Shown here: piece after piece, positions 11,925 through 54,500 of the stretch
How positions within the stretch are numbered: the first letter of the stretch is position 1
How the letters are laid out: each line of letters starts with the position of its first letter
Source of the DNA: Bolinopsis microptera
Taxonomy: Eukaryota > Ctenophora > Tentaculata > Lobata > Bolinopsidae
NCBI RefSeq assembly: GCF_026151205.1
Contig: NC_087073.1
Location: forward strand, 15,023,837-15,087,836
Reading direction: 5' to 3'
Length of the DNA stretch: 64,000 bases
Notes under the pieces: generated by a model
What the model was told of the DNA's origin: nothing
Databases searched by the model: none
Seen by the model: only the letters and a program-made list of their open reading frames with translations
Position numbers and translations under genes: made by a program

Positions 11925-14900
11925 TCCTTAGCCGCTTGTCTCATAAACCAAAAGCGGACTTTTGGGGACGGGGCGGCCCCATTGGACGGCAAACCCATAC
12001 GGCAAAGGCGGCAAGCCGGGGGGCCCAAGGCGCAAATCCCCAAAACAAAAAAAAAAATTTTTGTTATAAAAAGTTTTTGTCCGCGGTCCCAAAACAAAAC
12101 CCCTTAAAAAGGGGGGCCCCCCGCCCCCAAAAGCCCAAAACGCAAAAAAAAAATAACAAATGCGTTCCTCTCATCCTACTCTTCCTCCATCCTCCCCTGG
12201 CGGTCTTCCTGATCGTTCCTCAGTCCTCTTCCTCCTCCCTCCTCAGTCCTCCTCCTACTCCTCCTCCTCGTCCTCAGTCTCTCATATTTCCTACAACAGT
12301 CCTACTCCTCCCCAGTCCACCTCCTCCTCTGAGTCCTCCATCTGTCTGGGTCCTCGCTCTTCCTCGTTGCATCCTCCTCCTCTTCGCTCCTCGGTCCTCA
12401 GTCCTCCGCCTCCTGGGTCCTCCTCCTCGATCCTTCTTATCAGGTCCTCCTCCTCCCCAGTCCTCTTCGCCAGTCCCCCTCCTTCTCCTCCTCCTATTGC
12501 AGGCCTCCTCTTCTCCTCCTTCATTCTTCTCCTCAGTCCTCCTTCTCATTTCTCCTAAGTTCTCCTGCTGGCTCTCCTCCTGAGTCCTCCTCCTCCTCCC
12601 TCTCAGTCATCTCCTTCAGTCATTCCTCCTCAGCCCTCCTCCCAGCCATCCTCCTCAGCCATCCTCCTCAGTACTCCTCAGTCCTCCTCCTCTTAGTCAT
12701 CGTCAGTCCTCCTCCTCAGTCCTCCTCAGTCCTCCTCAGTCCTCCTCCTCCTCCTAGGTCCTCCTCCTCCTCGTCCTCCTGGGTCTTCCTGATCCTCCCC
12801 AGTCCTCTTCCTCCTCCCCTCCTCAGTCCTCCTCCTACTCTTCCTCCTCGTCCTCAGTCCTCCTCATCAGTCCTCAACAGTTCTCCTCCTCCCCAGTCCT
12901 CCTCCTGATCCTCCTCCTGGGGCATTTTCCTGGGTCCTCCTCCTGGGTCCTCCTCCTGGGTCCTCCTCCTGAGTCCTCCTCCTCCTGGGTACTCCTTCTC
13001 CTCCTCAGTCTTTCTTCTCCTCCTCAGTCCTCTTCCTCCTCTTCCTCCTCCTCCTCCCTCTCAGTCATCCTCCTCAGCCATCCTCCTCCTCAGTCATCCT
13101 CCTCAGTTCTCCTCCTCCTCCTCCTAGGTCATCCTTCTGGGTCCTCCTCCTCCTCCTCCTCCTGGGTCTTCCTGATTCTTCTCCTCCCGGAGGACGGACA
13201 TAGGCGGACATAGGCGGACATAGACGGACATAGGCGGACATTAATGGACACCTAAATTGCTAAATAAAATGTTCAATTTTTGCTGTTATAGGGGGATCAT
13301 GTTTTTTGTCCGTTCGGTACCCTATATTTTCAAAACGGACAAAAAATAGAGCGGACAAAAACGGACAAAAATGGACAAAAACGGACAAAAATGGAAATAA
13401 CATTTAGATGCTTCCTCCTCCTACTCTTCCTCCTCCTCCCCCTGGGTCTTCCTGATCTTCCTCAGTCCTCTTCCTCCTCCCCTCCTCAGTCCTCCTCCTA
13501 CTCCTCCTCCTCGTCCTCAGTTCTCCTCATCTTTCCTCAACAGTCCTCCTCCTCCCCAGTCCTCCTCCTCCTCCTGAGTCCTCCTCCTGGGTCCTCCTCC
13601 TGAGTCCTCCTCCTCCTCCCTCTCAGTCATCCTCCTCAGTCATCCTCCTCAGCCATCCTCCCCAGCCATCCTCCTCAGCCATCCTCCTCAGTACTCCTCA
13701 GTCCTCCTCCTTCTCAGTCATCGTCAGTCCTCCTCCTTCTCCTCCTCCTATTCAGGCCTCCTCCTCCTCCTCCTCAGTTCTCCTCAGTCCTCCTTCTCAT
13801 TTCTCCTAAGTCCTCCTCCTGAGTCCTCCTCCTGAGTCCTCCTCCTCCTCCCTCTCAGTCATCCTCCTCAGCCATCCTCCTCAGCCATCCTTCTCAGCCA
13901 TCCTCCTCAGTACTCTTCAGTACTCTTCAGTACTCTTCAGTCCTCAAAATGTTTGTCCGCTAATGTCCACCAATGTCCGCTAATGTCCACCAATGTCCAT
14001 CCAAGTCCGCCAATGTCCGTCCAAGTCCGCCAATGTCCGTCCGAGTCCGCCAATGTCCGTCCGAGTCCGCCAATTTCCGTCCGAGTCCGCCAATGTCCGT
14101 CCGTGTCCGCCAATGTCCCAAAAAACACGTCCGTTGTCTCATAGAATCAAAAAAGGACAGGACATAGGCGGACATAGACGGACATGACACCCCCCCTTCA
14201 CAACTAAAGATATTCGACAAACAAGAAAGGTGGTAAAAAGTGGTAAAGTGGCAAAAAGTGGCCTTAAGACACGTGGAAAAGTTTGGAAAAGTTGGTCAGC
14301 CATAAAGGACATCTATTAGGACTCAAAAACGTCAAAAATCCTTTGTAAGCTTTGTGTGTCGGCAGATCGATTTTTTCAGACGGATCTGTCTGTACTAATA
14401 ATAGAAACATGTTTATTGTTATTTGTTTACCTTATTACATTGTTAGAATAGGTTATTATTGTGCAAGAATTTGTTTTGTAAACATGTCTTATTAGAGGAA
14501 TTCTTATCGTGTGTAAAAATGTAAAGGAGTCAATTTACAGGTCAGGAATCTGCCACAAAGTGTGAAGATTTGGGACAAGGCAGTACAGTTGGAAGATGAC
14601 ACCATGGCAAAGAGGCGGGTGCTACGTAAAGCGCTAGAGAACATTCCTAATTCTGTTAAATTGTGGAAAGATGCTGTTGAACTTGAAGAACCAGGTCTAC
14701 CGTCTTTTAGTTCGCATTTTGCCTGGTTTTGAAAATGGTCGAAACATTCTGAACATCTGCTACAACAACAAATACATAACAATAATAGTATCCTGTTATT
14801 TTGATAATATTATTTTATTCAGGTGATGCCCGGATACTGCTAGGAAGAGCGGTGGAATGCTGTCCTACTTCTGTTGAACTGTGGTGTGCTCTTGCTAAAC

Positions 14901-30500: not shown

Positions 30501-33500
30501 AGCGGTTGTTATGGTTTCTGGTGTTGTAGAATAGTCAGTTACTTCACCGGGAGTGATTATCATCCCCCTTCTCATCAACGAGTCGCTGAGTTGAACATCA
30601 AAACCAGTCGACAGCTGAGGAGATTGGGAGTCTGGACGAGATAGGATTAAAGGGTCGCTGTTGTTATCTTCTCCTTTCTTTAGCTGAAACAATATAGTGG
30701 AATTAGTTTAGATGGAACGCCAGCTGTAGTCAGTAATAGCTGATAATCTATTAAGTAATTTAACTGAACTTTAAAGTCCAAAAAGATGATCAACTGGTTT
30801 AATATGTTTGGGCAAAACAAGATCGAAGCATGGCCAATATTAATTAAACTCCGTAGGAGCTCCTCTATTATTATTGATACGATTAAACTTATTGGTCCTT
30901 TGAGGAATCGTCAATAATGGGAAATAATGGAGTAGAGATACACTTTAGTTTGTGAATTAAATTTGGACCAGAACTTTGGAACTAACACATTTAGCAGCAT
31001 ATTTAAGCAATAACCTCTCTAAAACCTCAACAGATTTCAGTCTCTACAAAATGTTTCGTGTATTAACAGTATTAATAGTAAGCGCTCTGGTGTTGTCAGT
31101 GCTCTCTTTGGAGCAACACGTGCCAGGAGGTGATCAGGGATGGTGCTGGGACCCTTGGGACAAAGTGTGGCACAAACAGGGTGAGAGTTTATTGTTTTGA
31201 AACTTGATGTGTAACGAAATATGTGCCGTTTGAAATGGCGCTGTTTCTTAAATCGGAATATTTAGATCATGTTTGGTTTTTTTCTATCAATAGAAAAAAA
31301 AATAGCTGTCGTGGTATAGATAATAAATATAACAGGTGAACAATGGTACGGAAAATGTAGGGTGTGCACATGTGATGGGGAGGGTGGTACTATGTGTAGT
31401 GATATTCCCTGTAGAACACCACAGATACCTGCTTCCTGCCCGGATACAGCCATACTGGTGAGTTGACCGCTGATCAGGACTTTAAGCAAAAATTAGGTAA
31501 ATACTAAACAATTTGATCACCATCCCAAATACTGGCATCTTTATAAGTTTATAATATCTGTTCTCAAATCTATTAAATGCTCTTTTTAGGTTAACGATGA
31601 CTGCAATTGTCCAAAGTATGTGTGTCCTTGAGAAGGAGGAACAAGACCGGATGACTTGAAGGGCAGTTTCTATAACCTCTCCATTTGCTTGGTTCAAATA
31701 TAGCCCTTCATTTCATTTTTATTCAACTAAAGAAGAGTTTTATTTGTAAATTCACAGTGAAACCCATACAAATCACCGTCTCTCCTCTTCTTTAATACAT
31801 TGTAGGCGGACGTCGTGAAGGTCGTGAAACCACGTGACACTGCCCACTGGTATCCTAGCAGGTAGCTGAGGAAGAGCCTCCTCCGGTTAGCCGGTATTAC
31901 GGTTAACAGGAAATATTGTCGAGCATGTGTTTTAATTCGTAGTCAATAATTCTCAAATTCATATTTCTGTACACCACGCCTACAGGCTGCATGTTGCGAT
32001 GTGAAAATAACATCAGATGTAAGAGCCCGGAAATTCATTAGAACTTAACTCATCTCCTGTAATAATATAATAATGAACCGTGTAGGAGCCCCTGCATGTT
32101 GTACACACACACACGGGCAGGTAGTCTCAGTAGAGTGTGGGAAATTTAGAACCACTTTAGAATACTCTGTCTGGCCAGAATTTGGAGTGAGCCCTTTTAC
32201 ATAAAGCCGCTGACAGTAATGCACTTTATCAATTAAAGTAGAAAGCCATTGGAATTTTCAATGAATATAAAGCTTTGTGTTTTGTGGTTATAAAAATTAT
32301 AAAAACCCTGCATACGAGTTCGGTATTCCCAACCCCGCGAGAAATCCAGACCCAGACCTAAACACTATACTCAGCCTCAAACAGGTTGTATCGAGATTCG
32401 ATAAGGACCTCGCACCCCCACCAAAAGCCATACCACCTGTTGAGGAGACTATCAAACAACTTAAGTGCTCCATGGAAGGCCTAAAACACGATCTGAGGAA
32501 GATACACATCCCCAGGAACTACCTTAAAGAAGATCTCGAGAGCCTAACAGAGGCGAAAACGCGGGAAAATGTACGGATTATCCTGACCGACAAAACCAAC
32601 AATATTGCTATCATGGAAAGAGAACTAGTGGAGCAAAAGCTAGCTGACCACCTGCGAGAACCTGCTTACAAACTATTAGAAGAAGATCCCACTAATAAGT
32701 ACGAAACAGCAGCAAACAACCTGTTTACCGACATATGCATAGATCTTGGAATAGATGTCACGAAACCCCCCATCAAACACGTTCTAAGCAACTACTCGTC
32801 GGCCCCAGAACTCTACCCAATGGCTAAGGATCACAAGCCCAGCTTTCCCAACACCAAAGTTCGAGTAGTACAACCTATCAACAACAGTGCTATAGAAAAA
32901 CTCGACATGGTAGTGAGCAAAGTACTGATACAAATTAATCAGCTCCTCCCAAACCGAGTCAAAAGTACAAAAGATTTTCTCACTAAGCTCCGCAACACTT
33001 ATCCTGACAACATACCGTAACCAGTAGTGTCAGTTTCCAAGCATCCCTTGATGTGGAGAACATGTACCCTACTCTACCCACTGACGAGAGAGCTTTACAA
33101 GTCATACTATCGTACATTGAAGATTACAAAGAAAATATTAACCTGTACGGATTTTCGCCCTCACATATTGTCTCCATGCTCGAATTTGTCCTACACCACA
33201 CTTACATCAAAGCAGGCGACAAATACTACCTACAAAAACAGGGTATCGGCACTGGGTCCCATAGTTCAGGCGCATACGCAGAAATCATCGTCGACTACAC
33301 CTACAATATAGCAGCAGAAAAGAGTACCCACAAGCCGGAGTGCCTTTCCACGTACGTTGACGACGCCTGGTTACTCTGGAAGTCAAGCGCCGAAGACTTC
33401 GAGGAATTCAAAGCCAATCTGAACTCTGTTTGGGCCTATGTAAACTTCACCAGCGAACTTCAAGAAGATAGAAAGCTCATTTTCCTTGATCTCACCATTG

Positions 33501-36500
33501 AGCTAAAAGAGAACAATGAAATATCCTTCACTCACTACCAAAAACCTACGGCTTCTGGAAGATATTTGCATTACGACTCACACTGTAGTCTAGTCACCAA
33601 AACAAACATCATCAGGTCGGAGACTAGGCGGATAGTTCTCAACTGCAAATACAAGGATGACAGCTGGGCATACCTCGAAAAACTGAAAACTCACCTGATC
33701 GTAAACTCCGGATATCCCAAAGAAGTCGTGACAAAACACATGTTACAAGCTCTAGAGAGACTAGAAGTACTAACAAGCTCGACCCCACGAGAACCCCGGC
33801 CAGAACCCGACCTTATCCTGAAGATACCGTACATTAACGAGAGCTTTACCAGGAGAGTCAACTCATCGATCAAGCAACTGGGAATAAACGCCAGAGTAGT
33901 GACACAGGCGGGGAAAGCTGTCAGGAGCATCATCAGCACACCATCTAAAGACGAGATATGCGAGTGCGAACTCTGCAAGGCAGATCTCAACTGTACCACC
34001 CGACACTACGTGTACAAAGCAAAATGTAAGAAATGCGGAGATCTGTACATAGGAGCTTCAAGACGACCTATTAGAGGTCGAATCTACGAACACGAGTCTA
34101 GCTTCCGACTCAACAACAGCAGGACCACACTAGGATACCACGCTGCTGAACACCGCAGAGCAGACGACCCACACTACACTCCCATATCGGGAAAAAGAGA
34201 CTTAGCAAAATTCTTCGAAAACTACGAATTTAGCATATCAGAACAATGTAAGGATACCTTAGATACCTTTATAAGAGAAGGCTTAGCAATAGAACACACT
34301 AAACCGAAAATCAATAACATGTGTGGAAACGGTTTTACAGACTAATTTCTAGTACACTTTTACTACGCTGATCTGAGGGTTGTAAACTTTCTCTGTTGTG
34401 ATTTTTTCTTATTGGTAACCCGATTTTTCTCGCATGGATGTGTACACCCCTTTTCTATAAATTTTGCTGAAATTTTCTTCCTAATGGTAACCCTGATCTT
34501 TGTCGCATGTATGTTTACTTTCCTAACCCAATTACCACACTCTCTGATTCAGAGATCAAACCTCCCCTTTTCAGTGTAACCTTGATAAAGTCCAATGCGT
34601 GACGAAAATTTGGTTTTACAGTTTACTTAGTTCCTTGTTTCACTTTGTTCGCAGTTTCATTTCGGGTGACGTGAAGTCTAAAATGAAAGCTAAATTCGTC
34701 TCAAACTCACGCTCAGCCTTAAGATCTATTTGATAAAAATTGTTCGCAGAATGTTAGCCAAAATCTTGCGTCATACCTAACATGCCCATCCAAATTTTAA
34801 AATGTAGTAAAATGGAGCGACTAAATGTGTATGGTATTAAACCAATATCAAATATCAACGTTATCGCTTCCTTCCACAAATACGCTAGTAATCTTGTTGA
34901 GGGTTAATATTATGTTCCTATCTGTAAGAAATAATTGAAATTTATGATTTAATACTTTAGAACTTAGCAACAGTAATATTTATCGTTGAGTCTGCCCACA
35001 ATTCAATGTTTTCGCTTCCTTCCACCACTGCACTAGTCATCTTCAGGACAGTATATTCTTATCTGTAATTACTCAGATGCAAAATAAATGAAATTTAGAC
35101 TTAAGAGCCCTCTAGAACTAAGCAACGTGGACAGATTCCTCTAAAACCTACCATTTCTAACGTACCCCTTACAATTCGTTCGCCAATATTAAATCATGAT
35201 CTTGTTCTTTAACATTTTAAGTCTGCTGATCGTGCAATCTTTTGAACCACAGGGCCTTTCCTAAAGATGACAGCTATAATGTTTGACACGATAAATAACG
35301 ATTATATCGAATATTATCCAGACTGGAGTGGTCTGACAACTGCCGTGTCTGCTTGTGGGTGGATAAAAGACTTAGGGTCATTCCAGTTCCCTACTATATT
35401 CAATTACCATAGTAGTGAGCTGGTAATGATGGCAGATGGACAATACACTCGCATCTTCAGTGTAACTCGACACTTGAACAGCGGGTTCCCTGTGCCGAAA
35501 GGCACTTGGTTTCTAGCTTGTATGACGTGGAGTATGTCATCAACAGATCAGCGATACTACGTAAATGGGAAAGTTATCGGATCGCAGCAAACAGCATCGG
35601 GCAGATCACTAAAGACCGGAGGGAAACTAAGACTGGGAAATTGGGGTGGAGGTAACAACAATTTTGGGGGACAAATGATGTACCTTAACTTTTACTCCAA
35701 AGAATTTTCCTCCAGTGAATTAGCTAGAATGGTGCAGAAAGGAATGTGTGCTCATATCGTGGAGGCTGACGAGCATGAGGCATCTAGAGTGATAAAATGG
35801 GAGGACCTGGTGCAGCTTGAAAGGAGTGGAGCAGCCACGAACATGTATGTAGGAGAATGTGTTGATCTTCTTAACGAGCAGTCCGAGCGGAGGCAGAATG
35901 AAACTGCTGAAGAATTGAAGGACTCCCGACAGCAACTCGAGAGCGTTCAGTCAGAAAAAGAAGAGATAGAGGAGGAACTCTCGACTAAAGTCAACGAGCA
36001 CGCTTGTAAAGGTCAACACTAGGCTTAATTCTACTGTCCGTGAGCTAGAGGAGATGTCGACCAGCCAGAACCGAACGTGGGACTGGAATATCTTCCTCGC
36101 GGGAGAATTCCTGAACCGCACCTTCACGACTGAAGACGCCCAACTTCTTCGCTCCAGCTGGGAAGATGCAGCAGGTACAAGGATAAATTCCTAGTAAAAA
36201 TGGCGTAAACAGCAGCTAATCAAATTTTTATCAATACGGTATAAGTCATCGAATTATGGTTATGACATCAGCATTTTGTTTAACTAATAAATCAGTATTT
36301 TAGCAACCTTTTTTCGCTCTTATGAGTGGGTCGATCATATAACTCTCTCTCTTCGTTCCCAACTATCAAATTATAAATCAGTATTTTATTCACATTAACA
36401 CACCAACTATTTCAGAGAAACTCGTCGGATTAACTATCACAGATAAACTGATCAAAGCATTGGACTACTTCGACTCTGATGAAGACAGGCCCTGGCTAAT

Positions 36501-45500: not shown

Positions 45501-48500
45501 AGCTGTTTCTCTTCTCACACATTGAAATGTCATGCATGAGGTGAATATTATGTGGTTTATCAGCGTAACGTTCTCGAATACACTTTGAAGATGTGTTTAA
45601 GTACACTTTGAAGATGTGTTTAAGTACCTAGCCTCAAGAATCCCGTTATATTCTTCGAGCTGGTTCGCGAATCCGGGATTTGGATTGATACAAGAGCGTA
45701 TCTTTTTAACATACTCTTGGGCGACTGATATGTTCATTGAATACTCCTTCATAATGTATGCGATAACCTGAAATACGTTTTCGTCAGTGTTGATGTACCC
45801 AAGTAACAAAGGATGTCACTTAATATATTAAGGAAATTAAATATTATAGAGTAAATCTAAAACTGGGAAAACAGACAAGATAATGTGGTAGGCGTTAATA
45901 AAGATAAAATTAAATTAGTACAATGTTAAAGTTATAATACAATATGTTACCGGTCGCGGTGTAAAGTGGAATAATGTTATGTAGTCGGTGTTTCAAATTG
46001 AAACTTCTCCAAGTAACAATTAAAGTAACAGCGTATTTAATAATTAATTAACAATTAAGGGGGCCGGGGGGGGGGGTCTTCATCAAAATTCTCTCGAAAT
46101 TGATTTTATAGTTGTTTCTGATAGAGGGGAGTGATATCTATCAGCTGCTTTTGGTCCCATGGAAAAATATTGTTCCTAGCCAAAATTATCGCCAGTCAAA
46201 GGTCAGCGCTTATGTGTAATTGTATTGCGCGAGCGATTTTCAATCGCGCGCCCTGAAAATCGAGTCTAAAAATCTATCTTCTCCTACATTTTTTGAGCAA
46301 TCACCCTAAAACTTTCAGGATATGTTCTATGGATCATTTAGAAGATATCTGTCGAGCCGAATTTTGAGATAGGCCTTAGAAGATTTTTTATTCAATTTTG
46401 AAAATCTTGGACCTCATTTTTTTACGATTTTTCCAGGTCCAAGATTTTCAAAATTGAATAAAAAATCTTCTAAGGCCTATCTCAAAATTCGGCTCGACAG
46501 ATATCTTCTAAATGATCCCTAGAACATATCCTGAAAGGGGGGGAATGCAACGTCAATTAATATCAATTAATGTCAATTAATGTCAATTAATGTCAATTAA
46601 TGTCAATGTCAGTTTTGCAAAATTTTGGAATACTGACATTAATTGACACGATATTTTTCGACCAGAGATTATGTAGTTCTACCATATTTTTAGCACTTTA
46701 GAACGTTTATATCATCAATTTATTCACTACTATCACATATGGAAATGTGAAATGTGAAAAAATTCAGATCATTAAACAATAAAACTAAAATAATACGGTT
46801 TCCCGAAATTTAATTTTCTTAAGGGGGCCGGGGGGGGGTCTTCATCAAAATTCTCTCGAAATCGACTTTATAGTTGTTTCTGATAGAGGGGAGTGATATC
46901 TTTCAGCTGCTTTTGGTCCCATGGAAAAATATTGTTCCTAGCCGAAATTATCGCTGGTCAAAGGTCAGCGCTTATGTGTAATTGTATTGCGCGAGCGATT
47001 TTCAATTGCGCGTTCTGAAAATCGAGTCTAAAAATCTATCTTCTCCTACATTTTTTGAGCAATCACCCTCAAACTTTCAGGATATGTTCTTAGGATCAGT
47101 AAGAAGAGAACTCTAGAGCCAGAATTTTGAGATAGGCCTTTAAAGATTTTTAATTCGATTTTGAAATTCTTGGACCTTAATTTTTAGAGGTCCAAGAATT
47201 TCAAAATCGGATTAAAAATCTTTAAAGGCCTATCTCAAAATTCTGGCTCTAGAGTTCTCTTCTTACTGATCCAAAGAACATATCCTGAAAGTTTGAGGGT
47301 GATTGCTCAAAAAATGTAGGAGAAGATAGATTTTTAGACTCGATTTTCAGAACGCGCGATTGAAAATCGCTCGCGCAGTACAATTACATATAAGCGCTGA
47401 CCTTTGACCAGCGATAATTTCGGCTAGGAACAATATTTTTCCATGGGACCAAAAGCAGCTGATAGATATCACTCCCTTCTATCAGAAACAACTATAAAGT
47501 CGATTTCGAGAGAATTTTGATGAAGACCCCCCCCCGGCCCCCTTAAATGGGCGTGGCCATCCAAGGGCGTGGTTCTCAACATCATCAGAACTTAAAACCC
47601 ACATTAAACGAAATGCCTTCATGACATTTATATTTGAATAACGAATCTTAAACAGCTAACATTACTCCTTCATACTAAAAAAGCCGATTCTAGATATTTT
47701 ACCTGTATAAGAAACCAATAAAATATGGGCGTGGCCGGTGGGGATCGAAGATGGAAGAGTTCGAAGCTGAAATCTTTTTTGGTGGTCTTTGAACCTAAGG
47801 ATCAACAGATAAGAACATACTCATAATTATTCAAGGACATTTTGTTTTTTTGAACCGGTCTAACTTACATAGACGTGAATATCTTGAATATTTATCGAAT
47901 AATGATAATCTCAAATTTCATGACATATTTATGTCAATTAATGTCAATTAATGTCAATTAATGTCAATTAATGTCAATTAATGTCAATTAATGTCAATTA
48001 ATGTCAATTAATGTCAATTAATGTCAATCAATGTCAATGTCAGTTTGGGGTTTTTATGGAATACGGACATTAATTGACGTTGCATTCCCCCCCCTGAAAG
48101 TTTCAGGGTGATTGCTCAAAAAATGTAGGAGAAGATAGATTTTTAGACTCGATTTTCAGGGCGCGCGATTGAAAATCGCTCGCGCAATACAATTACACAT
48201 GAGCGCTGACCTTTGACTGGCGATAATTTTGGCTAGGAACAATATTTTTCCATGGGACCAAAAGCAGCTGATAGATATCACTCCCCTCTATCAGAAACAA
48301 CTATAAAATCAATTTCGAGAGAATTTTGATGAAGACCCCCCCCCCCCCCCGGCCCCCTTAAAGTAACAGGTTTATTTAATAATTAAAACTCACACAGGAG
48401 GCTGATCTGCTGACCCCCATCCGGCAGTGCACGAATACTTTCTTGTTCTGCCTCTTAGCGTCTTTGATGAAGTTGTAGGTGTCGTCCCAATACTGCTGTA

Positions 48501-51500
48501 AGTAACTAGCTTCCTCGTCCTTTATCCTGGGAGTTATAAGTTTGATGAAAAGGAAAATACTAAAGATATTATAATAAGTAAAAGACAATTTAACCTGCAA
48601 GAAGATGCCGGCAAGTGGATATGGTCAAGAGTCTGATTCTAGGAATCACACAAGAAATTATGAGTGGCACACACCTGATAGTTTTATAAACAAATTCATG
48701 ACTGAAGAAGTTAGCAATCTCCATGGTAACGTTCAGAACATGGGTGACTCCGTACTGCTTGAGCTGTGTCAAGTGACTGGCATTCCATTCGTTACCCAGG
48801 TACAGGTAGTCAAATATCTTGCTCGGACTCTCCGTCGATTGGCCGAACACTTTCACAATCTGAGGGCACCCGATACTGAATATCTTTTTAGTGAACGGTG
48901 TAAAGTGGATTAAGTTATCTTGACAGGATCTGTGTTCTATGTAACTGAATTAGGTTGTGTCCTAATAAGGTAACATTAGGTTGTGTCCTAATAAGGTATC
49001 ATTATTCGATATAACATAAGAAATTTATGAATAATATTATGTGGGACTAATATTGTTCTCTTTGATTCTTGAATAATATCAAAGGATCCTCTGAAACCAA
49101 TATTTTTACACATTGCAATATTTTTAATATTATGGAATTAAAAATCAACTTAAATATAACGCCAAAAAACTTAGGCCTGTAAAGATGAAATACCAATGTA
49201 TTATATATTATTACTATTTGGGATTCCATTATTGGATTTATCTTAAAGGTTTTCCATTGCATTGGGGCACAAAAGTTATGTTTTTAAAAATATTCATAGG
49301 TATCGTTTTTAGTTGTGTCATTTCATTTCCAATGTTACACTTTGTAGGAACTGATATTAACCGAGTTTCTGATTCAGGATGTTACTGAAGATAGTAATGA
49401 AACTGTTTTAACACCTCAGTACTGTGTTTTACTACAGCTCAACCTGCTCAGTCTGACTATTTGGGAATTTAAACTCTTGATATTATTACTATAATATACT
49501 ATTATATTATATAATGATTAAAATAAACCTGCTCATCTATAAAGCGTTTGTAGGGAGTGAGATTAACATTAAAGTCGGACTCCAGCTGTTTACGGATTTC
49601 CAGGCAGCTCGCATTATCAAGATCTATCGTCATTATTATCTCTCTCATTCGGAACAGGATCTTCTCCATAATCCTCTTTATCTTATCACTGAAACAGCCA
49701 GGTAATTTACAATATAGGAGTTTTTCTTAACGGTTCAGAGAAATTATTCCGCTGACTGCTGAAACATAATCCCCAAATTCCCCACAATGTATACCCTGGC
49801 CTTGTATAATATTACAATGAGAATTCTCGTGACTACTTAGTTAAAATAAAATAAATATGTTATAAATTCAGTCATATGTAAATTTTACTTCCGTGTGTAC
49901 AGTACAGTATACTGTGTAGTGTGTACAAATATACATACACATTACACTGTGTGCAGACAGTATCTTAGCTTACACGTGGGGATGTATACTGTACATTGTA
50001 CATTGTACATTACATACACTGTATAGTGTAGAGTCACGTAGGTCTTCCTATGATGCACATTAGCACCATGTTCACTAATCACTATCTCCACTTCCACTAC
50101 CACCATTAGCAAACCACGCATGTACACTACACACACCACGCACACCGGCATACAGTGTATAAGGCATGAACAATGAACATTGCGGGAAACACACACTTGG
50201 CAAGGCGAGTGTAAACAGTGGTTTCTGCTTGCAAATACCTTTTCAACGTGGTCGTGTAAACAGTGAACATTGAAATAGTGTAATTTATACCGTTCCAAGA
50301 TATGTATTCCCACTAAACTTATTTATATATTAAATGTCCCTGAGGGTTTGGTATGGGCTCCAAAGGCTACAAAAGGACCCTTCAATTTGGTCATGTGGTC
50401 AGTACCTCTAAAACGTGAGATTAGTGATTATTTCAACATACACCGTCCTCATGATATCCCTTATTTTACCCCTCATACATGTTACACAACAACAAGGGTA
50501 TAACTTTAACAAAATACAAAGGACCCTAATTTTAAAGATACCTCTAATTTAAATGTACGTTTAACCATTTAAACACGCGTGTTTAATAGACACACATATT
50601 TATGACACGTTAAATCTTACATAAGACACCTGCCTCCTCTCTCCCTCTTCTCACCGCCCATATTATTTGTTACCCACTTTTTTGTTTTGTTTTGTTTTGA
50701 AACCCCACGGTGGAGGTTGGCGTGTGCCGCAATTTATTAATCAATGGTTATTACATAAATGAAATTATAGAAGTCACACTAAAATATAATAATGTAAAAT
50801 AAAATATATTAAAATAAATGCCCTACTAAAAGTACTATATAACTAACGGTCTGCAAAACTGGTTGAAGTCGCAATTTGTGAACATGCTAATTACTATTTA
50901 ATAATAATAGATAAAAAGTTTTGCGCGGCAGATGTAAATTCGGCATTGCATAATGAGATAATGGCAGTGAAATTAAAATGATATGTTGTTGATAAAAGAT
51001 CATAGTCATTTGTCGCGAGTGATCTTTCTTTACGCGTTGTCGCTTACTAACTCGGTGCTGTAGTCTATTTGCGAGCGCCCTTCTCTTTGAGACTTTCTTA
51101 GCCCAGGTATACTATAAAGTAAGAAATTTGGCCAATTTTCATCGTCTCCTGAGCTTTGCAGCTTGAGGAGTTCGCGCTTAGCTGAATTTTTAAAGATTTC
51201 AATCGAAAAGGTAGAACTTGGAATAGTTATATCCTTACTTTGTTTTGTAATAGAGAGCATGGGTCCTTTGAAGAAAAGAATATTTCTAAATGTTGGGCCG
51301 TTGTAAGTTGTGAACCAAGAAAGGTTATGTTCGTATGTGGAATTATAGGTGGGAATATCGTGAGGGAAAAGTTCTTTGATGGATTTAGGGAGAAGGCTTG
51401 GCATGTTCCTTACTTTGTGTAGTAGAATAAGAGCGTTTTTTACAATGACGCTATGGACTGTTAGGATATTATGCAATCTAAACGCACTTTTTGTGTGCTC

Positions 51501-54500
51501 CGGGGGATTGCCGTCTTTATATCTATAATTTACATATCCTGACATAACAGCTCTAATTCCCTGCTTTTGCTTGGTGAACAGAGATTCAATGTGACATTTT
51601 GAGGCAAATCCCCACACTAAAGAGCAGAAATTTAGATGGGATTGGATAAGGCTTTGGAAAATGTTTAGGCGGGCTTTGATAGGTAGAAGGTGCTTTAGCT
51701 TATACATAACTCCGAGGTAGCGACCCATCTTTATTCTAACTGCCGTAATGTGTTTTTGCCAAGTGAGCTTTTCGTCTAGGATCACTCCTAAAAATCTTGC
51801 TTCAGTCTTACGTTCGATTACAGTGTTGTCAATGGACAAATTAAAGCCGCTGAAGTCGATTCTTTTTCTAGTGAAAATCATGTAACACGTCTTTTTTACA
51901 TTTAAAGATAGCCCATTAGCACCTACCCAATCTACAAGACGTGAAATTAGCTGATTAGCTTTTAATTGTATTTCTTCTAGGGTGGTTCCACTAATTAATA
52001 TGTTTGCGTCGTCGGCATAAAGGATGAACTTTGCAAAATCACTAATTCCAGGTAGGTCGTTTATATAAATTACAAATAAGAGAGGTCCTAGAATGCTCCC
52101 CTGAGGTACGCCGTAAACTATGGGCATGCTAGAAGAGCAAGTTCCGTTTAAAGTTACGTATTGAGATCGATTACAAAGGTAAGATCTAAACCATTCGTGC
52201 GCGACTCCCCTGATCCCATAATGGTCAAGCTTCTTAAGCAAGGTCTCATGATCAAGCACTCAGAGTAGGAAGTAGTAGGAATAAGTAAAGTAGATATGGG
52301 GAAAAGATATTCGATTGAGATGATGAAATAAAGGAAGCTGTTTCATACGGCTTCAATACTGACTCTTTAAATCATGTTTAGCGACTTGGTACTCAATACT
52401 GGCTCTTTAAAATCATGTTTAGTGACTTGGCTCTCAATACTTACTCTTTAAAATCATGTTTAGCGACTTGGCTCTCGATGAGTGAGTTGTCCTCCCAGTC
52501 GTCCTCAGTTTCCAGATAATCAGGTACTTTAGCGGTGTAACATCCTGCCCAGGTGTGGTGGTTCCTGCTGCCCGGGAAGAAGTTGTGTCTCCGGGCGTTC
52601 TCTATGTCAGGGTTCAGGTAGGAGTAGGCTACCCTGCGAACATTACACACGTGTCATCATGGTATTATAGAATATAGTAGTAAGAGTATTAATATAGTAG
52701 GACTATAATAAACAGATAGTTAATAGTCCTACAGCAGTACAGTACTACAGTATATTATAGTAGTAGGTATAGTTTAGTGGTTCAGAGCACTGAATTGGGT
52801 GCTCTGAGTGGGGGGACTTTTTGAATAGTGGTTCTTTCAATTGAAGTTCAATCGCAATTTGATAGTGTTGCCGATTAAAAAGGAAAGGAGACAATTTTAA
52901 GAAGCTTTATTTGTCCAAATACTTACCATAAAGCTTGCAAGTTGACAGGCTTGAAAATATACTGGCCATGATTCTGAGCGGATCTGATCTTGATGCCACC
53001 ATCACCATCCATCTCTATAGACATTCCTTTAGTAACTGGCAGTGCCATGGCGACTGTTATATCTCCTTGACATCCAGAAGGTGACTGAAAGTATGCAATA
53101 ATATCAATATTATTGAATAACATAGGACGCATCTAGATTCTAGATACAAGTACATTCAATGTACAATTTGTTTGCTTTCACTAAAAAAATAATGTTTGAT
53201 AGAATATAAATTATAAAATGCTAGTCACGGAACACACCTCTCGATGGTTGGGACAAGCAGTAACGTTCTCCGGCAGATTATTGCCGATGTTGATCCCTAA
53301 GATGGCGTGCTCACGTACGTCCTCCCCGTAACCCGGGTCAAGATGAGCACCTACCATGATCACCATGTACCTCTTCTTGCTCTCGGACGACTTCACTGCT
53401 CCAGGTACCACCTGAAGAGGTGGTGGTTAAAGGTGTGTACCAGTTGAATCTTGTCTGTGTACATTGTACAAGTTGAGCAAAATCTAACCAGTTAAATATT
53501 CATTTTATTCTGATATATCTTCTACTGATCATATATTGACTTTCAGGCCTACTGGTTCACATGCCAGTTACCATTATTAATTAACAGTTTCAAACCAGAT
53601 AGCTGATATATGAGCTACATAACTGTTTTTGTTTACAGATCTAAACTTTGTGTAAACAAACTAAATAATCCTAACATTCTTGGCATGACCGTTCTGAACA
53701 CTCCTGACAATTATGTCATTTCACCAGCCATGCTGAACTGACTCTAATCAGCGATAGCCGTTACGGAGTGCATTAAATGTACCGATCATCAGAGTATATT
53801 TAGCCCAAATAAGTATTGATAGCTAGCGATTAGTATGAAGTCTATAAATAATCTCTGCTTAGTTGGTGCGAAATGCAAATATCCTTGTATAGTATTTACC
53901 GCTATACACCGTCGTGAACTATTTTAATTGCGCTGATCGCATCTCGGAAGACAATTGAACAGAAATTATGTAGGTAGAGCGAAAACAGAATGTTATTGAA
54001 CATGACTAAAATGACTATAAATGGAAATAAAAGTTGTCTCAAAAAATGATTAAAGCTATAGAAGCTGTATGATGAAAACAGAAAAGTGGGATCAGACTAA
54101 GATCCAACAGAAGTGAAAAACATCAGAAAAAAGCAGAAAACTTACCAATTGAATGGAATGTTCAAGGTAAGCTGGTCTCTGAGCGGAGGGATGTGGCATG
54201 ACTTCATCCAGAATACGTTGAGTAATACACTTGATCAGACCTGCAGTTGAAAATAGTTTAGTTGCAGATTCATCGAGAAGCTTTTACAAACTTTCTGCGG
54301 CCCCTCAGCAACACACGTCTGGCTACTATACGAAGCACAGCTTTGATCACAGTGAATTGAATCTGATAGAGCTACAGTGCATAAGACTTTGAACTTCGCT
54401 TCTTACATGCGTGGCTCCTGCAGCAATTTAAAGAGATTCTCTACACATTTTAATTGTGATTATTTGTATAATATTTCCTTTAAAGCAGCTGCCTTTTTAA

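Follow-up and report, generated by a model that had tools for sequence, protein, structure and literature searches.

A nest of three MITEs in the ctenophore Bolinopsis microptera and mirrored divergence between its palindrome lineages

Architecture of the nested locus

The window analysed here, a 64,000-nt stretch of Bolinopsis microptera DNA (contig NC_087073.1, positions 15,023,837 to 15,087,836), contains three inverted-repeat elements set one inside the other. The outermost is a palindromic miniature element (MITE) of what we call lineage A, which spans 46059-48357 but is interrupted: its left arm, its loop and the first part of its right arm occupy 46059-46537 (+), and the remainder of the right arm lies at 48101-48357 (+), with the outer 254-nt arms 99% complementary. 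TTAA target duplications border it at 46055-46058 and 48358-48361. The interruption is a middle element, D8, at 46538-48092 (+), which reads GGGGGGAATGCAACGTCAA...TTGACGTTGCATTCCCCCC, with ends of six G and six C (GGGGGG...CCCCCC), and would measure about 830 bp without its own insert. Copies of an 8-bp target duplication, CCTGAAAG, adjoin it at 46530-46537 (+), where the copy is the outer hairpin's own sequence, and at 48093-48100 (+), and 10-bp tandem repeats lie in the vicinity of its left end (46552-46607, +, (GTCAATTAAT)n) and of its right end (47927-48038, +). Inside D8 sits a second palindromic MITE, of lineage B (46823-47542, +), between TTAA sites at 46819-46822 and 47543-47546; its arms, 359 nt when counted with TTAA, are 98% complementary and separated by a 10-nt spacer. 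A preliminary description had already proposed a three-level nest here, and sequence reading together with a repeat search confirmed it with exact coordinates, including the TTAA boundaries of both hairpins and the 8-bp duplication around the middle element.

Missed by that description were imperfect direct repeats of ~25 bp (AGTAACAG..TTTAATAATTAA) that adjoin the outer TTAAs externally, at 46023-46049 and 48362-48386. We rejected these as a long target duplication, as they differ by indels although the insertion is young, and for the same reasons the outer hairpin's target DNA was probably already repeated before the insertion. Elsewhere, 3 of 25 other hairpins (12%) sit in tandem repeats; for control TTAA sites within the window the share is about 1.5-4%.

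Two multicopy families

Genomically, neither family is confined to this locus. In the 264.65-Mb assembly (13 large contigs), the exact 16-mer TTAAGGGGGCCGGGGG occurs 642 times (329+313), against 2 occurrences (1+1) for the reversed control, and its sites mostly form facing pairs with a spacing of ~735 bp or, in shorter classes, of around 580, 470, 400 and 200 bp. Hairpin ends carry the motif GGGGGCCGGGG, beginning GGGGGCC (end form TTAAGGGGGCC), and when ends were read without requiring TTAA, 57 of the 61 distinct ones were nonetheless preceded by it; the TTAA-flanked hairpins recognised in the preliminary description are thus members of a multicopy family. Among 30 unpaired exact ends read on contigs C1 and C2, nearly all start the usual arm, and the rest resemble miniatures, chance or satellite ends. 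Two loci on C1 (L090, C1:16264347-16264517; L098, C1:24305451-24305621) hold miniatures of ~45-60 bp that retain only TTAA, the GGGGGCC ends and a few bases. At another (L014, G000:C8:13963935-13967209), near-identical hairpins recur about every 976 bp in a tandem array, a local amplification of the hairpin plus its flank.

The D8 family comprises elements of about 750-920 bp with GGGGGGAATGCAACGTCAA ends (given as GGGGGGAATGC and also as GGGGGGAATGCAACG) and 10-bp tandem repeats near both ends. Its 8-bp duplication is exact in 15 of 16 copies, the sixteenth being shifted by one base beside a homopolymer, which, together with the excess of TTAAGGGGGCCGGGGG over its reversed control, argues that the structure did not arise by chance. 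Hairpins and D8 alike are short, non-coding and multicopy, with inverted ends and target duplications, as expected of MITEs. Each of the three elements in the nest comes from a multicopy family, and natural empty sites exist for these families.

Elements of the hAT group produce 8-bp target duplications with the consensus nTnnnnAn and have CAG/TAG-type ends. D8 also makes 8-bp duplications, but calling it hAT-like, as had been done, is unsupported: its ends are GGGGGG rather than of the CAG/TAG type, only 2 of 15 duplications fit nTnnnnAn, and on C1-C8 none of 94 hAT dimerisation domains tested among the matches listed was closer than 8 kb to an exact D8 end. The search for a partner compared the positions of piggyBac, Mutator, hAT and Merlin matches with element ends, and on these eight contigs no Mutator, Merlin or piggyBac domain match came as close as 8 kb to such a D8 end; the P-type domain profile matched nowhere, its controls likewise being without a match. 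No autonomous relative with D8 ends was found in a non-exhaustive search, the longer D8 copies that were checked being ordinary D8 with inserts, and we assign D8 to none of these groups. In layout, D8 is similar to the Tm1 Mutator/Foldback element of root-knot nematodes, in which subterminal tandem repeats of 13-15 bp are combined with duplications of 8-10 bp and with an inverted-repeat element nested inside (PMC3169594).

Several D8 copies have a context of their own. Exact D8 ends in direct orientation lie exactly 7192 bp apart on three chromosomes (G000:C1:4998317/5005509, C3:1055505/1062697 and C5:11597477/11604669), as if the repeats of some larger mobile element carried D8 along. One D8 copy (L117, C8:1343508-1343900) holds another element with a TTAAGGCCACAGGGGGGGGG end, possibly from a related TTAA family, and a long copy (L114, C1:4896900-4900600) contains, as its insert, a TCCTCC-rich repeat with a coding-like block that is shared with window positions 12200-13950.

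Among known DNA transposons, Kolobok and Sola3 target TTAA, as the hairpins do, and piggyBac has the same target duplication, but its ends begin CCC whereas those of the hairpins begin GGGGGCC. This GGGGGCC end is absent from the single intact piggyBac copy read (C11:19205900-19208900). No autonomous partner for the hairpin family was found in a non-exhaustive search with piggyBac, Mutator, hAT, P-type, Merlin and THAP profiles; the THAP matches were not linked to hairpin ends. Viral contigs and plasmids gave no match. Both families would presumably have been moved in trans by transposase encoded elsewhere.

Order of the insertions

The outer palindrome certainly predates the middle element, and the D8 target site is uninterrupted in all 28 other sampled hairpins. 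Nothing interrupts the TTAA site of the inner hairpin in the 42 other D8 loci that were sampled and cover it (two further loci are right-end fragments that do not), and because the inner hairpin is absent from all 42, it most likely came third, entering D8 afterwards and in situ. The empty sites that the preliminary description had looked to therefore exist at both levels, and its placing of the outer hairpin before D8 holds; for the inner hairpin it had allowed an entry either before or after that of D8, of which the later is most likely. Very probably, the locus records three successive insertions by two families of non-autonomous DNA transposons, with the palindromes evolving in bursts from near-perfect founders. 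A palindromic, TTAA-targeting MITE of lineage A would have inserted first, D8 with its G6/C6 ends would have entered the right arm of that element with an 8-bp duplication, and a second TTAA palindrome, of lineage B, would have inserted into D8.

Nesting logic would also permit the inner hairpin to have been inside D8 already when D8 entered the outer hairpin, the composite moving as one, given that the inner hairpin interrupts D8 sequence and not outer hairpin sequence. We consider this improbable, since none of the 42 other D8 loci covering the site carries the inner hairpin, and a D8 copy of similar length that was checked (C8:8025955-8027510) carries a different insert. Near-perfect palindromes of 700 bp are hard to assemble, and our evidence is the assembly itself, so that the nest or one of its hairpins might in principle be an assembly duplication; however, the outer and inner hairpins belong to separate lineages, each with closely similar copies on other chromosomes, and the target duplications of both inner insertions are exact, which makes such an artefact extremely unlikely. 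Three insertions in succession are thus the preferred reading. Such nesting is not unique, as a second, independent insertion of D8 into a hairpin (C11:262393-263202, duplication GCTGCTTT) demonstrates, and the nest itself is a tidy example of relative dating, but an ordinary one. The D8-bearing hairpin on C11 (L054, 1080-2420) has lost most of its far arm and is flanked by tandem-repeat DNA.

Two palindrome lineages and the symmetry of their arms

An alignment of the outer with the inner hairpin gives an overall identity of 90.9%; the outer arm reaches 93-95%, and identity falls to 80-89% nearer the centre, so that "almost identical", the wording of the preliminary description, was too strong. 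Its notion of the same palindrome outside and inside is also unsupported: in a tree of arms from 29 elements, chosen mainly for their close match to the outer and inner hairpins of the nest, the outer copy falls in lineage A and the inner copy in lineage B, well separated, with small further groups C (two elements) and D (one element). A topology in which arms cluster by side and not by lineage was rejected (delta lnL 58-64; SH and AU p < 0.001, with 5000 resamplings, which IQ-TREE flags as few for AU). Arms of other A copies differ from those of the outer copy by 0-0.3%, and arms of other B copies from those of the inner copy by 0.9-1.5%. Recent activity of the hairpins, claimed earlier from the resemblance of outer to inner copy, is borne out, but it follows from these other genomic copies and not from that resemblance. 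With near-identical copies elsewhere in each lineage, local or assembly duplication is unlikely.

On the stem (alignment columns 1-345), we compared the elements pairwise and scored a difference as mirrored if both arms had it and as unmirrored if it was confined to one arm, leaving the divergent element L073 out of the pair counts. Pairs within lineage A differ by a mean of 0.33 mirrored and 9.84 unmirrored positions, and pairs within lineage B by 0.29 and 14.57, against 21.05 mirrored and 13.18 unmirrored for A-B pairs. The corresponding values are 11.4 and 11.8 for A-C and 17.0 and 15.1 for B-C, where C is two elements, and 18.6 and 13.1 for A-D, where D is a single element; between-lineage pairs other than A-B range from 5 to 19 mirrored differences. 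The window's two hairpins alone show 20 mirrored versus 9 one-arm differences. Since the unmirrored count hardly changes between and within lineages, the divergence between lineages is almost entirely mirrored and that among copies almost entirely unmirrored. Long perfect palindromes are fragile, and the maintenance of symmetry in palindromic transposons has seldom been tested; here the two levels separate cleanly, lineage differences being mirrored in both arms and copy differences unmirrored, which makes it possible to ask whether a burst requires symmetry at its outset.

Structurally, the loop has the same position in lineages A, B, C and D, and differences between the consensus arms are almost confined to it (columns 353-362), for which reason we rejected fixed left/right arm differences along the whole stem. 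Ongoing homogenisation of arms in resident copies was rejected as well: in lineage A, the two arms of one element have diverged as much (0.0155) as arms of different elements have (0.0153). At column 260 the arms differ in both A and B, and thus either symmetrisation was incomplete or an old asymmetry recurred. The A/B differences fall mostly in the loop-side third of the stem (columns 238-345), so that the history of the stem may vary along its length.

With differences mirrored between lineages and almost never within them, the founder of each lineage was a near-perfect palindrome, which was then copied whole while its arms drifted independently. We propose that evolution proceeds in bursts, in which a near-perfect palindrome would found a lineage, the whole element with its loop would be copied, the arms of each copy would mutate independently after amplification, and the arms would be made identical again when the next lineage is founded. 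As the symmetrising step we favour the copying of one arm from the other via a hairpin intermediate, or arm-to-arm gene conversion, either of which, acting before each burst, would yield the mirrored pattern with one event per lineage. More tentatively, palindromic MITEs might be periodically reborn through such hairpin-intermediate rewriting, with only freshly perfected palindromes founding successful lineages, an extension that we hold to be possible rather than probable.

Other routes to mirrored divergence have to be weighed against this scheme. The lineages could have had separate births, in each of which one end of a longer, non-palindromic parent was duplicated in inverted orientation; such births would likewise yield palindromes that are perfect at their origin, and MITEs often originate through terminal rearrangement, but the loop position shared by all four lineages would be left unexplained, and no linear relative was recognised among the 30 unpaired exact ends read on C1-C2, so that we think separate births unlikely. 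Selection for perfect pairing in a functional DNA or RNA hairpin, with second changes compensating for first ones, would agree with lineage-level stem changes that are almost all paired. Yet the majority of the mirrored A/B base changes are transversions (counted by eye), which have no wobble-paired intermediate, and fixed one-arm differences are rare (columns 69, 141 and 330), both of which make stepwise compensatory change less likely; resident copies with several mismatched positions are, moreover, common, and this explanation seems to us improbable, even more so than separate births. Rewriting of one arm from the other before each burst therefore remains the step that we favour.

Palindromic TTAA repeats of C. 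elegans are catalogued in Repbase as PALTTAA, and these and the hairpins, likened here by description only, are both whole-element inverted repeats flanked by TTAA; for the hairpins, the present description gives the end motif GGGGGCCGGGG and a history of lineages. Long inverted repeats also occur in the foldback-like elements Galileo (PMC4168063), Tetris (PMC4079207) and Tm1 (PMC3169594), whereas the hairpins consist of arm and loop only, flanked by TTAA. Galileo has 7-bp duplications and a P-type transposase (PMC4168063), in contrast to the TTAA of the hairpins, and the two terminal repeats of Tm1 average 93% identity within an element (PMC3169594).

Elsewhere in the window, 32271-34345 and 51030-52259 (-) hold an ORF with a weak GIY-YIG match, below the Pfam cut-off and possibly Penelope-like, plus a reverse-transcriptase fragment.
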